Source of the DNA: Bradymonas sediminis
GTDB taxonomy: Bacteria > Myxococcota_A > Bradymonadia > Bradymonadales > Bradymonadaceae
Assembly (NCBI RefSeq): GCF_003258315.1
Contig: NZ_CP030032.1
Coordinates: 1,936,001-2,000,000, forward strand
Direction: 5' to 3'
DNA length: 64,000 nucleotides
Positions 16,266 to 21,293 of this stretch are shown here, piece by piece (within the stretch, counting starts at the first letter, position 1; every line of letters starts with the position of its first letter). A model generated the notes under the pieces. That model saw only the letters and a list, made by a program, of their open reading frames with translations. It was not told the origin of the DNA and did no database searches. A program made the position numbers and the translations under genes.

Positions 16266-17021
16266 TTAATTCGGCTCTTCCATCGGGCCTTCGGGGTTGC
16301 CGGTGATAAATTGCTGAACGACCGGGTCGGTCGAGTTCTGGAAGTCGTTCTGGCTGCCGTCAAAGAGCAGCTCGCCCTTATAGAGCATGGCGATGCGGTC
16401 GGCGATGCCGAAGATGCTGCGCAGGTCGTGGGAGATGACGATGCTGGTGACGCCCAGGTTGTCCGACAGGTGGCGGATCAGCTTATCGACCATCGCCGCC
16501 GAGATGGGGTCGATGCCGGTGGTCGGCTCGTCAAAGATGACATATTCGGGGCTCAGGCTCAGCGCGCGGGCGATGGCGACTTTTTTGCGCATCCCGTCGC
16601 CAAAATCCGACGGGTATCGGTCGGCGTAGTTGTGCATGCCGACTTTTTTCAGGAGCTCCATCGCCTGGTCGCGCGCCTCCTGTTTGGTCACGTCGAGGTG
16701 CTTTCGAATCGGGAGCATCACATTCTCGATGAGCGTCATCGAGTCGAAGAGCGTTGAGTTTTGGAAGACCATCGCGCAGCGTTTTCGGATGGGATAATAC
16801 TCCTTCTCCGTGTAGTCGGTGATGTCGGCGCCGTCGAGGTAGATGCGACCCGCGTCGGGGCGCAAAAGCCCCACCAGATGCTTCACCAGCACGCTCTTGC
16901 CCGCCCCGGACTGCCCGATCACAAAGAAGACCTCGCCGGGCTTCACGCTGAGCGTGACGCCGCGCAACACGTGCTTGCTGCCAAAGCTTTTATAGATGTC
17001 TTTGAACTCAATTGTTCCCAT
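16266..17021 (-). CDS. mlaF: Mla-type ABC transporter ATPase with altered signature motif (NBD 1)
   Basis: A 251-residue ATPase of the MlaF/Ttg2A family, which powers phospholipid movement between membranes. Walker A is GQSGAGKS (36-43), the Q-loop MVFQNSTLFDSM, Walker B VIFDEPT with a normal catalytic Glu (E165), D-loop GIDP and switch SHD. The signature motif, normally LSGGM, reads DFGDGM (139-144). Last gene of a probable six-gene operon (21293 down to 16266) with a second ATPase, two MlaE permeases, a TPR lipoprotein and an OM barrel. Its defect complements that of the second ATPase, suggesting they pair. No MCE-domain (MlaD) gene is present in the window. Confidence 0.9.
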   Translation of the reverse strand: MGTIEFKDIYKSFGSKHVLRGVTLSVKPGEVFFVIGQSGAGKSVLVKHLVGLLRPDAGRIYLDGADITDYTEKEYYPIRKRCAMVFQNSTLFDSMTLIENVMLPIRKHLDVTKQEARDQAMELLKKVGMHNYADRYPSDFGDGMRKKVAIARALSLSPEYVIFDEPTTGIDPISAAMVDKLIRHLSDNLGVTSIVISHDLRSIFGIADRIAMLYKGELLFDGSQNDFQNSTDPVVQQFITGNPEGPMEEPN

Positions 17022-17090
17022 AATCGCTCCATTTTGCCCGTGTTGGTGTCGCCAGGCGCGCGAGGGTGCAGCGTATAAGTCAGTGCGGCC

Positions 17091-17753
17091 TTAGAAGCCG
17101 TATTGGAAGCCGAGGCTCAGGCGGTGAAACGACCAATTCTCATCGGCCCAGGGGTCATTTTCGTCGTAGTGGTCGGGGCGCGCGAGTCCCTGCAGGATCG
17201 GGAGTGAATAGCCCACCTGCACGAGCAAAAAGCGCTCGTCAGCCGTCCAGATATAGCGGCCAAGGCGAAGCTCGCCGCCCAGGACCTGCAAGGGGGCGTC
17301 TTCGAGGTGCGCGGTGAAAAGATGAATCCCCGCGTTTGCGACCCAGCCGCTCTCCTGGCCGAAGGGCAGCAGATGCCCATAGATGCCGACCTGCCAGGCG
17401 AAGTCGCTCGCGCTGGGCGCGGCGCCATCTTTGCCCGCGGTGTGCGCGCGCATCCATTGCACGCCGGCCTCGGCTTCGGCCGACATGAAGAAATAGCGGT
17501 TGATGGTGTGAGACAGCCCAACCTGCGCCATGCCCGCGCTGGTGAACGCGGTGTCGGCCGTGGAGTCAAGCATAAAACCCGGGTCCAGGCTGAGGCCCAC
17601 GGTTAAGTATTGGCGCCCCTCGTTGGGTTGGGCGACCTGCTGGGCCTGGGCGTCGGAGAGCGAAAAGGCAGTCGCGCAGAGCATGGCGACGAGCGCGACC
17701 GAGCCGCGAAGAGCCGGCTTCGAGGAAGTTCTTAATTCGGATAAATAACGCAT
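17091..17753 (-). CDS. Outer-membrane barrel protein inside the Mla-like operon
   Basis: A 220-residue protein with a signal peptide (cleavage after DAQA). Alternating-strand segments such as YLTVGLSLDPGFML and RLGRYIWTADERFLLVQVGY, and a C-terminal LSLGFQYGF ending in Phe, are consistent with a small 8- to 10-strand barrel. No named family is recognised. It lies between the MlaE-like permease and the MlaF-like ATPase genes with spacers of 27 and 69 bases. It is therefore likely cotranscribed and may be the OM partner of the transporter. Role inferred from context. Confidence 0.7.
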   Translation of the reverse strand: MRYLSELRTSSKPALRGSVALVAMLCATAFSLSDAQAQQVAQPNEGRQYLTVGLSLDPGFMLDSTADTAFTSAGMAQVGLSHTINRYFFMSAEAEAGVQWMRAHTAGKDGAAPSASDFAWQVGIYGHLLPFGQESGWVANAGIHLFTAHLEDAPLQVLGGELRLGRYIWTADERFLLVQVGYSLPILQGLARPDHYDENDPWADENWSFHRLSLGFQYGF

Positions 17754-17780
17754 ACTAATTCGGGGTGTGGGTGTTCAGGC

Positions 17781-18635
17781 TTATAAGATCGCGAGGATCG
17801 CGTAGCCGATGCCGGAGATAATAAAGTCGAGCACGATGACGGCGAGGCTGGCGTTGACGACCGCTTTGGTGGTGGCCAGGCCGACGCCCTCACTGCCGCC
17901 AACCACGCTTAGCCCCGCCTGACACGCGGTGATCGGCACCGCGATACCATAGGCAATCGCCTTGGCCATGCCGATCCACAGGTCAAACCAGGTGAGCATG
18001 CCGAAGTCGACGAAGGTGCGCGGGTTGACGCCGTAGAAGGCGTTCGCGGTGATCGCGCCGGCGATAAAGGACACGATGATCGCGAAGACCGTCAACACGA
18101 CCATCATGATGAGCGCCGCGATAAAGCGCGGAACAACCAGGTAGTCCACCGGCTGAGCGCCGCTCATGCGCAGCGCGTCGACCTGTTCGGTGACCACCAT
18201 GCTGCCCAGCTGGGCGGCCATGCCGGTGCCTACGCGCGTGGCGAGCATCATGGCGGTGATGGTCGGGGCGAACTCGCGCAACAGAAGTTGCAAGAAGAGG
18301 GCGCCAAGCAACGACAAATCGCCCGTGATGCGGTTGGCCTGGAAGCCGGCCTGGAAGATGAGAATCATCCCCAGAAACCCCAGCGTCACCGCGATAAATA
18401 CGATGGAGCGGTTCCCGATCTCGTACATCTGCGAGATGATGTCATTTCGCCGCCGCGGCCCGCCCTTGCCGTTGATGATATAATAGATGGTCAGCCCGAG
18501 GATGCGCACCATATCGCGCAGCGTGCCGTAGAGCTCCAGGATCGGCGCGCCGATACCGGCGAGCATATTGTGCACGAAGCCGGGCGACGCCTCCTCGACT
18601 TGGGCGTTCGGGTCTTGGGTTGTTTCTGCGGCCAT
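17781..18635 (-). CDS. mlaE: MlaE-family ABC permease (copy 1)
   Basis: A 284-residue inner-membrane permease of the MlaE family. The family block REFAPTITAMMLATRVGTGM, then AAQLGSMVVTEQVDALR and DYLVVPR, is intact. An N-terminal interfacial helix and five hydrophobic segments follow the usual MlaE topology. The second permease of the operon is clearly different in sequence, so the two may form a heterodimer rather than the MlaE homodimer known from E. coli. It lies 85 bases downstream of the second permease gene on the same strand. Confidence 0.9.
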   Translation of the reverse strand: MAAETTQDPNAQVEEASPGFVHNMLAGIGAPILELYGTLRDMVRILGLTIYYIINGKGGPRRRNDIISQMYEIGNRSIVFIAVTLGFLGMILIFQAGFQANRITGDLSLLGALFLQLLLREFAPTITAMMLATRVGTGMAAQLGSMVVTEQVDALRMSGAQPVDYLVVPRFIAALIMMVVLTVFAIIVSFIAGAITANAFYGVNPRTFVDFGMLTWFDLWIGMAKAIAYGIAVPITACQAGLSVVGGSEGVGLATTKAVVNASLAVIVLDFIISGIGYAILAIL

Positions 18636-18720
18636 AATGCGTGTCGCTCAGGCTGAAATCAGTGAATCATGCGCGAGGGCTCGAGAGGCGGCGTCGAGAA
18701 GACGCGGCACAAGTCATCTC

Positions 18721-19491
18721 TCAGTGCATCGCGTAGGTGATAAAATAGTCAAAGACGAAGATGGCGATGGCGCTGCCGACGACCGAGGCGTTGACCGCCC
18801 GGCCCACGCCCACCGCGCCGCCGCGGGTGCTCATGCCAAAATAGCAGGAGATAATGCCGATAGAATACCCGAAGACGATCGCCTTCCAGAGGCCGTGGGT
18901 GAAGTCCTCGAGCTTGATATACTCGATGATACTCCAGACGAATAACTTCACGTCCACGCCCAGCAACACCTGGCCGGTGATGGCGCCGCCGAGCAGCGCG
19001 GCGAAGTCGCCGATGATGACCAGCAGCAGCAACATCACGACCATCGAGATGATGCGCGGCACCACAAGGTAGCGGACCGGGTCGATGGCCAGGGCGCGCA
19101 GGGCGTCGACCTGGTCGGTGATCTGCATGGTCCCAAGCTCGGCGGTGGTGTTGGCGCCGACGCGCCCCGAGAACATCAGCCCGATCATAATCGGGCCGAC
19201 CTCGCGCAGCACGCTATAGCCCGCGCCCCAGCCGAGCAGGCCGTAGGCGCCGTATTTCTCGATGAACATACCGGCCTGGATCACCATGATGGCGCCGGTC
19301 AGCAGCGCGGTGACCACGACGATGGGGAAGCTCTTAACCCCGATGCGGTACATGCTGCGCCAGACCTGCTGGCCGTCGAGTTTCCAGGGCGCCGAGTTGG
19401 CGAAGACCTTGACCATCATGAGCACGAGCCCACCGATGGTGTCGGACCAATCCAGGAATTGTTTGCCGATTTTTCGAAGCGGATTGATCAT
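18721..19491 (-). CDS. mlaE: MlaE-family ABC permease (copy 2)
   Basis: A 256-residue MlaE-type permease with the blocks REVGPIMIGLMFSGRVGAN, TAELGTMQITDQVDALRAL and RYLVVPR and about five membrane segments. Its start lies only 3 bases after the stop of the ATPase gene at 19495, showing tight coupling with that ATPase. Together with the neighbouring permease it suggests a heteromeric transmembrane unit. The substrate is presumably a lipid, as for other MlaE proteins, but without a visible MCE subunit this remains inference. Confidence 0.9.
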   Translation of the reverse strand: MINPLRKIGKQFLDWSDTIGGLVLMMVKVFANSAPWKLDGQQVWRSMYRIGVKSFPIVVVTALLTGAIMVIQAGMFIEKYGAYGLLGWGAGYSVLREVGPIMIGLMFSGRVGANTTAELGTMQITDQVDALRALAIDPVRYLVVPRIISMVVMLLLLVIIGDFAALLGGAITGQVLLGVDVKLFVWSIIEYIKLEDFTHGLWKAIVFGYSIGIISCYFGMSTRGGAVGVGRAVNASVVGSAIAIFVFDYFITYAMH

Positions 19492-19494
19492 GGT

Positions 19495-20235
19495 CTACCC
19501 GAGCTCGTCGTCGCTGGATGCATCCCAGAATTGGCGCACGAGCTTGATGTCTGTTTCTTCGATTTCTTCGCGGCTGCCGTGGAAGACGATCTGGCCGCGA
19601 TCCAACATGAGGAAATTCTCGCAGATATCTTTGATGCCGTCGATATCGTGGCTGACCGTGATTGAGGTGGTGCCCTGGTCATCTTTCATCTGGGTGAGCA
19701 GGCGGAAGATCTTCGAGCTCGTCACCGGGTCGAGGCCAGCGGTGGGGTCGTCATAAAATAGAATCGGCGGCTTATGAATCACGGCGCGCGCAAAGCTCAC
19801 GCGCTTCTTCATGCCGCCGGAGAGCTCGTTGGGGAATTTCTGGGCTGCCGTGGGCAACCCGATCTCAACCAGGAGTCCTTTGACCAGCTCTTGAATCTCT
19901 TCTTCGCTGGCCTCGCCGGCCTGGCGCAGGGGGAACGCGATATTCTCGGAGACGGTCATATCGTCGAAGAGGGCGTAATTCTGAAAGAGCATGCCCAGGC
20001 TCTTTCGAAGCTCGGCGATCTCGGTCTCTTTGAGGCTCATCACGTCGACGTCGTTGATGAAGACCTTGCCGCTGTCGGGGCGAATCAGCCCGCAGATGAT
20101 CTTAAGCAGCACCGTTTTGCCGCAGCCGCCCGGGCCGATAAGGCCCAGGTTTAAGCCTTCGTTGACCTCAAAGCTGATATTGCGCAGCACCGGGCGCCCC
20201 AGGTGGCTCTTGCAGACGTTCTCGACTTTAATCAC
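19495..20235 (-). CDS. mlaF: Mla-type ABC transporter ATPase lacking the Walker B glutamate (NBD 2)
   Basis: A 246-residue MlaF-family ATPase. Walker A is GPGGCGKT (34-41), Q-loop MLFQNYALFDDM, an intact signature LSGGM (138-142), D-loop GLDP and switch SHD. Walker B reads ILFYDDPT: the catalytic Glu is Asp (D163, codon GAC at 19747-19749). This is the reverse of the other ATPase of the operon, which has a normal Glu but an altered signature. The start is GTG 20235, overlapping the stop of the upstream TPR gene by 4 bases (GTGA), so translation is probably coupled. Confidence 0.9.
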   Translation of the reverse strand: MIKVENVCKSHLGRPVLRNISFEVNEGLNLGLIGPGGCGKTVLLKIICGLIRPDSGKVFINDVDVMSLKETEIAELRKSLGMLFQNYALFDDMTVSENIAFPLRQAGEASEEEIQELVKGLLVEIGLPTAAQKFPNELSGGMKKRVSFARAVIHKPPILFYDDPTAGLDPVTSSKIFRLLTQMKDDQGTTSITVSHDIDGIKDICENFLMLDRGQIVFHGSREEIEETDIKLVRQFWDASSDDELG

Positions 20236-21293
20236 TGCACAGCCTCCTCGCCGAGACGGCGTTTTACTTCGCGGATATAGCGGCTCTCGGGGTATTGCTT
20301 GGCGAACTCACGCATCGCCTCTTCGAAGGCTGTCTGGCCGTGCATCAGGCGCAGGACATGCACGCGGTCCCAGGCGACGTCGTCGGTGAGAAGCCCGTCG
20401 GGGAAGTCCACCAGAAATTGGTCGAATTCGCGCAGCGCCGCCGGGTAATCATCGAGGAAGAGCATATAGATATAGCCGAGGTTTCGGCGCGCGTCGTTGG
20501 CCCAGGGGGAGTTATCGTTGCCCATAAACCAGGCACTTTGCAGCAGACCGGCCGCCTTGCGATAGACCGCGATGGCGTTTGGCCAATCCTGGCGCTTCTC
20601 ATAGATCTGGGCGGCCTCCCAGAGTGAGTCATCGGCCAGGTGGCCGTCGGGGTCTTCGGTCCAGACGCGACGATAATAGGGCAGGGCCTCCGAGGTGCGG
20701 CCTGCCTTATGGAGCTGGTGGGCCGCGGCGAATAAAAGCGTCCCGAGGGCGGGCTCGCCCTTTACCTTCGAGGCCAACTGATTGAAGTCGCGCTTCATCG
20801 CCTCGAAGTCGCCGGCCTTTTTATAATAGACCGCGTGGTCGCGCACCGCCATCTCGGCGGCCACCGAGCGGGGAAAACGCGTGATGGTGTCGCGGCGCAT
20901 CTTAAGCGCGCGCTCGTGCTCACCGAAGTGTTCGTCGAGGATGATGCCGGTGCGATAATGCGCGGTCGCGCTCGCCTCGTCGTCGATCCCCTCGGCGTAG
21001 ACCATCTTATAGCGCTTGAGCGCTTCGCCCCAATCCTCGCGTTGTGCCGATATCTTGGCCAGCTCGGTCAGCACGAAGCGGCGGGCGTCTTCGCTCGGCG
21101 GGTTCTTGAGCAGGCGCAGGTAGTCGCGCTCGGCCTGGTCAATTTTGCCTGCATCATGGGCGCGGCCCACCGCCAGGACCTTCTGGTCCCAATGGGCCAC
21201 CGGACGATTGCTGCCGCAGCCGATCGCCATGCTCATCAGCGCGAGCAACGCCAGCGCAACAAAATGATGGATATATGGAAGAGTTCGTTTCAA
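20232..21293 (-). CDS. TPR-repeat lipoprotein, first gene of the Mla-like operon
   Basis: A 353-residue protein. The signal sequence ends MSMAIGC, a good lipobox, followed by GSNRP. The remainder is a series of TPR-like helical hairpins (for example DWGEALKRYKMVYAEG, GRTSEALPYYRRVWTEDP, DYPAALREFDQFLVDFP). It probably sits in the periplasm tethered to a membrane and acts as a scaffold. It is translationally coupled to the downstream ATPase and leads a six-gene minus-strand cluster, so it may be a periplasmic accessory of the lipid transporter. No MCE domain is visible in it. Confidence 0.82.
   Translation of the reverse strand: MKRTLPYIHHFVALALLALMSMAIGCGSNRPVAHWDQKVLAVGRAHDAGKIDQAERDYLRLLKNPPSEDARRFVLTELAKISAQREDWGEALKRYKMVYAEGIDDEASATAHYRTGIILDEHFGEHERALKMRRDTITRFPRSVAAEMAVRDHAVYYKKAGDFEAMKRDFNQLASKVKGEPALGTLLFAAAHQLHKAGRTSEALPYYRRVWTEDPDGHLADDSLWEAAQIYEKRQDWPNAIAVYRKAAGLLQSAWFMGNDNSPWANDARRNLGYIYMLFLDDYPAALREFDQFLVDFPDGLLTDDVAWDRVHVLRLMHGQTAFEEAMREFAKQYPESRYIREVKRRLGEEAVQ

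Follow-up and report, generated by a model that had tools for sequence, protein, structure and literature searches.

Does a six-gene cluster of Bradymonas sediminis encode a lipid transporter in which two unlike ATPases pair to form one intact and one degenerate ATP site? The source genome is 5.05 Mb long and lies on a single contig, C1; the window is the whole 64-kb stretch analysed, C1:1936001-2000000. The open reading frame listing places the six genes between window positions 16266 and 21293, all on the minus strand and either overlapping or separated by 3-85 bp (Table 1). Two MlaF-type ATPases and two different MlaE-type permeases had been described in one minus-strand cluster by an earlier note on this DNA, and both the open reading frames and the Pfam matches agree with that description.

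Table 1. Genes of the cluster, with positions counted from the first letter of the window
Feature	Position	Strand	Length	Evidence and remarks
TPR-repeat protein	20232..21293	(-)	353 aa	TTG start; TPR_6 E 1.8e-13
NBD2, MlaF-like ATPase	19495..20235	(-)	246 aa	ORF, Pfam ABC_tran, NCBIfam
PERM1, MlaE-family permease	18721..19491	(-)	256 aa	PF02405 E 2.5e-69; TIGR00056 209.8 bits
PERM2, MlaE-family permease	17781..18635	(-)	284 aa	PF02405 E 9.8e-59
Outer-membrane beta-barrel	17091..17753	(-)	220 aa	Signal peptide followed by eight main strands (AlphaFold2)
NBD1, MlaF-like ATPase	16266..17021	(-)	251 aa	ORF, Pfam ABC_tran, NCBIfam

PERM2 is a divergent paralogue of PERM1, and comparison with the structure database gave MlaE and YrbE1A/B as the solved relatives of the permeases. 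Both NBDs matched ABC_tran in Pfam (E 7e-33 and 5e-34). The best NCBIfam match of NBD1 was MlaF, under the curated (equivalog) cut-off, and the two best of NBD2 were FtsE and then MlaF, both likewise under their curated cut-offs; among solved structures, MceG and MlaF matched the NBD1 profile at 205-218 bits. Annotation of MlaF has been described as uncertain, and possible only by synteny, in a phylogenomic survey of Mla systems (PMC10665443). The cluster holds the MlaE-family permease and the MlaF/MceG-like ATPase of an MCE-linked (MlaE/MlaF, type VIII) ABC transporter.

The remaining two genes point to the outer membrane. The TPR protein carries an N-terminal signal with a lipobox-like ...MAIGC, read from the sequence, and is probably a lipoprotein; gene maps of relatives place its orthologue first in the cluster throughout Bradymonadia. 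The barrel has no Pfam match. Its AlphaFold2 model has a mean pLDDT of 83, and a PDB search returned OmpA/NspA/OmpW-type barrels as the nearest folds, at low identity. It is conserved in the same family, weakly so in the same order; elsewhere it matches weakly or is absent. From gene order, the barrel and the TPR lipoprotein appear to be the outer-membrane partners of the transporter.

Complementary motif changes in the paired ATPases

NBD1 combines Walker A GQSGAGKS, an intact Walker B (FDEP) and the switch SHD with a degenerate signature, FGDGM, in a region that reads YPSDFGDGMRKK. NBD2 combines Walker A GPGGCGKT, the signature LSGGM (LSGGMKKR) and the switch SHD with YDDP at Walker B, where the catalytic Glu is absent; D162-D163 is invariant in the NBD2 alignment (A3). 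The altered signature beside DEP in NBD1, and YDDP beside LSGGM in NBD2, are thus as first described, and they proved to be conserved over many genomes. The NBD1 signature was degenerate in 72/72 sequences (71 GDG, 1 SDG), none of which had lost the Walker-B Glu or the switch His (0/72). On the NBD2 side, the signature was degenerate in 0/63 sequences and the Glu or the His was lost in 62/63 (33 E>D, 29 H>S).

Co-occurrence of the two changes, which the earlier note had proposed as a check, was seen in every NBD1/NBD2 pair from the same locus: 48/48 had a degenerate NBD1 signature together with a lost NBD2 catalytic residue (25 E>D, 23 H>S), the complementary lesions in one composite site that mark degenerate-site heteromeric ABC transporters. 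Further genomes added variety, with SDG, GPS and GPG as NBD1 signatures and E>D, H>S, H>T and E>D+H>Q as NBD2 states, and none of these changes fell in the wrong subunit. Fixation across so many genomes argues against chance and against sequencing error. By the geometry of an NBD1-NBD2 dimer a single ATP site receives both lesions, and this speaks for a heterodimer in which one site is consensus and the other degenerate. Since E>D is a mild change, NBD2 may keep slow hydrolysis.

A single NBD2, that of locus L103 (6424-7230), keeps both Glu and His (DEP, SHD). It has an altered D-loop (GRD) and sits on the E>D side of the tree described below.

Distribution of the module and its MCE subunit

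Genome scans for PERM2 and NBD1 covered the phylum Myxococcota. The PERM2 profile detected an orthologue in 158/379 genomes, and MlaE genes were present in 58/58 relatives searched, most of them with the same permease pair. NBD1 orthologues were found in 67/151 genomes and PERM2 was present in all 67, so that none of these NBD1-bearing genomes was without PERM2. Conversely, NBD1 was not detected in 5/72 PERM2-positive genomes, some of which are fragmentary or have weak PERM2 matches. If homologues of either ATPase occurred singly with the same altered motifs, an asymmetric pair would be contradicted; for NBD1 such homologues were sought in Myxococcota genomes and not found, and the nearest partnerless proteins, six other MlaF-like sequences scoring next to NBD1, all keep LSGGM, DEP and SHD.

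Gene maps of 40 regions gave the order TPR-NBD2-PERM1-PERM2-barrel-NBD1-MCE in the same family as the source, with NBD1-MCE forming a separate divergent unit in some relatives. Named carriers include Lujinxingia vulgaris and Bradymonadaceae bins, and 80 named loci widen the module to Sorangium, Polyangium, Labilithrix and other Polyangia-type genomes; in Polyangia the genes are scattered at some loci, or no NBD2 lies close by. A tree of 89 domains recovered NBD1 as one clade (100/100) and NBD2 as one clade (100/99), indicating an ancient pair that was vertically kept across the phylum. Within NBD2, the tree separates an E>D side from an H>S/T side (support 99/94 and 96/90), so two old lineages disabled the same site in different ways. 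Apparent permease fusions, long open reading frames over two genes at L044 and L052, were rejected because the coordinates put their parts in different frames. PERM2 of Myxococcota type was also found in L152, a record whose title names it a Klebsiella pneumoniae MAG; that bin name is probably wrong.

No MCE gene lies within the 64-kb window (PF02470 search), and to that extent the earlier claim that no MCE subunit is encoded locally holds. The genome-wide search that had been suggested returned two PF02470 matches, at C1:1895992 and C1:1377497. The former belongs to a 373-aa gene at C1:1895308-1896429 that adjoins leuS, about 56 kb from the cluster. In relatives an MCE gene directly follows NBD1, and these genes are the best matches of the leuS-side MCE gene: scores were 332-492 bits in most genomes of the same family, whereas the canonical MCE profile reached about 20-30 bits. 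The subunit therefore exists and has moved about 56 kb in the source lineage. By orthology rather than linkage, the leuS-side gene is assigned to the NBD1/NBD2 system, and gene order in relatives together with the orthologue here gives the transporter its MCE-domain subunit. In the single-chain structural model of an orthologue, a membrane helix is seen and the MCE domain is predicted with confidence, while the long helical tail is of low confidence. There is usually one MCE gene per locus. Two tandem MCE genes occur in the heteromeric loci L118 (1763-4023), L155 (9529-11600) and L159 (10675-12757); the second is distantly related, and the MCE ring may thus be heteromeric too at these loci.

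A predicted heteromeric transporter and its alternatives

Taken from comparative sequence evidence, an MCE-type lipid transporter with obligate NBD1-NBD2 and PERM1-PERM2 heterodimers and one consensus ATP site is, in our view, highly likely. The asymmetric heteromeric MlaF/MlaE transporter predicted earlier has come through both comparative tests, that of the motif pairs (48/48) and that of NBD1 with PERM2 (67/67). However, the solved MCE-linked ATPases, MlaF and MceG, are all homodimers, and two permeases and two ATPases could also be sorted into two sets, that is, into two separate homodimeric Mla-type transporters in one operon, with each NBD pairing with itself and with one permease. This arrangement seems very unlikely to us, since pairing NBD2 with itself would leave both sites without the catalytic Glu or the switch His, and pairing NBD1 with itself would put a degenerate signature in both. 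Moreover, mostly one MCE gene is available per locus, and the ATPases keep their complementary lesions across two deep clades.

A second asymmetric ATPase is encoded elsewhere in the genome. This fused tandem MlaF-like protein of 563 aa (C1:1807523-1809211; L077 1387-3075) lies beside an FtsW/RodA-like gene and is found in most Bradymonadia sampled. The signature of its C-terminal half is degenerate (ISxGQ/E) in all but a few rows of the alignment, the Walker-B Glu of that half is intact in all rows listed, and the N-terminal half shows E>D in three rows. The two halves are sisters in the domain tree (TN 100/98, TC 100/97, joined 100/98) and hence arose by a duplication independent of NBD1/NBD2. 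A canonical, third MlaE is found with a 518-aa MCE protein at C1:1376587-1378934 (L056 6587-8934); the C-terminal part of this MCE protein is barrel-like, and no ATPase gene adjoins the pair. We infer that the tandem ATPase powers it.

This canonical MlaE, without an adjoining ATPase, and the loss of the catalytic residue from NBD2 in nearly all genomes would both suit a reading in which NBD2, as a pseudo-ATPase, has a regulatory role and NBD1 mostly pairs with itself or serves other permeases, for example the one at C1:1376587. Such a division of labour is less probable still. The NBD2 signature is never degenerate among the 63 sequences, which fits a role in completing the site of NBD1, and NBD1 occurs only where PERM2 does. 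For the canonical pair the tandem protein is a better candidate, as families f5 and f7, where neither PERM2 nor NBD1 was detected, contain the pair as well as the tandem protein. It is scarcely credible that the motif changes reflect neutral drift in a duplicate gene that is decaying: NBD2 is indeed more divergent than NBD1 (53% against 72% mean column identity), but LSGGMKKR is invariant in the NBD2 alignment (A3) and GDG in the NBD1 alignment (A2), and both genes are intact across two deep clades.

Under the heteromeric reading that we prefer, the cluster would belong to a trans-envelope lipid transporter of the MCE type, for which it supplies the inner-membrane ABC core and the outer-membrane partners, with an obligate NBD1-NBD2 heterodimer beneath a PERM1-PERM2 heterodimer. 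The complete site, formed by Walker A/B and the switch His of NBD1 with LSGGM of NBD2, would hydrolyse ATP. The other, formed by the catalytic half of NBD2 and the degenerate signature of NBD1, would bind ATP, with slow hydrolysis or none. The single-MCE-domain protein would form a ring, presumably hexameric, atop the permeases, its long helical tail pointing toward the outer membrane as a possible periplasmic bridge; at that membrane the barrel and the TPR lipoprotein may take up lipid or pass it on. We also put forward, as a doubtful conjecture, that ATPases with a single active site arose two or more times among Myxococcota MCE transporters, as NBD1/NBD2 and as the fused tandem MlaF, because the asymmetry imposes one direction on lipid moving through the MCE tunnel to a dedicated outer-membrane barrel.

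Comparison with known transporters

MlaFEDB of E. coli, Pseudomonas and Acinetobacter shares with this system MlaE-family permeases, MlaF-like ATPases and a single-MCE-domain protein with an N-terminal membrane helix. In MlaFEDB, however, MlaF and MlaE are homodimers, whereas two NBDs and two permeases are found here, and E. coli MlaF has consensus motifs (LSGGM, DEP, SHD) in place of complementary degenerate ones. E. coli-type MlaF is a homodimer with a C-terminal 'handshake' extension (PMC7367683); the NBDs described here (251 and 246 aa) stop before most of it. MlaFEDB also has the STAS subunit MlaB, while the cluster is without a STAS gene. The MlaA lipoprotein and same-locus MlaC of E. 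coli-type Mla are likewise missing: the genome has no PF04333 match for MlaA, and a lone MlaC-like gene (C1:2645292-2645762, L227; one PF05494 match, 122 bits) lies far from the cluster.

Mycobacterial Mce1 consists of a YrbE1A/YrbE1B permease heterodimer, an MceG homodimer and six different Mce proteins that form a needle (PMC9882608). It resembles the present system in its heteromeric MlaE-family permease pair and in MCE proteins with a long helical region, and differs in having the MceG homodimer and Mce1A-F against a probable heteromeric ATPase pair and usually one MCE gene. The premise that known Mla systems are homodimeric accordingly stands for MlaF, with both MlaF and MceG solved, and is limited for MlaE by the YrbE1A/YrbE1B heterodimer of Mce1 (PMC9882608). 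In the minimal trans-envelope MlaEFD system of Veillonella parvula, MlaD and the barrel form one fusion protein, and MlaE and MlaF are single genes (PMC10665443). The two systems have in common an MCE protein extended past the MCE domain, an outer-membrane barrel partner and no detected MlaA, but here the barrel is a separate gene, the NBDs and permeases are paired and the genome holds the MlaC-like gene elsewhere.

The closest parallel to the motif pattern comes from heteromeric ABC exporters. Degenerate sites of human ABC heterodimers always have a signature change, the next commonest being Walker-B E>D and often H-loop changes (PMC7756269). Similarly, TAP1/2, TM287/288, BmrCD, CFTR and MRP1 have a signature lesion in one NBD, a Walker-B Glu or H-loop lesion in the other and one consensus site (PMC7756269). 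These exporters, on the other hand, have other transmembrane folds and no MCE subunit, and ABCG5/G8 shows a different lesion pattern, in the signature and Walker A. The one-sided arrangement of ATP sites is thus known in human and multidrug transporters; in the literature searched, outside which most subscription papers lay, we found no description of it for MCE/Mla lipid pumps, nor of a heteromeric MlaF pair or a Myxococcota MCE system. Through this module the consensus/degenerate-site design, known mainly from work on exporters, would reach trans-envelope lipid transport as well. For Mla/MCE systems it is debated in which direction transport runs and what ATP hydrolysis contributes; a natural MCE transporter with one site predicted to be disabled, maintained across deep lineages through two kinds of lesion, could help to tell hydrolysis-dependent steps from those that need ATP binding only. 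Cultured carriers are Lujinxingia vulgaris TMQ2 (L095), Sorangium cellulosum (L116) and Polyangium fumosum (L127).
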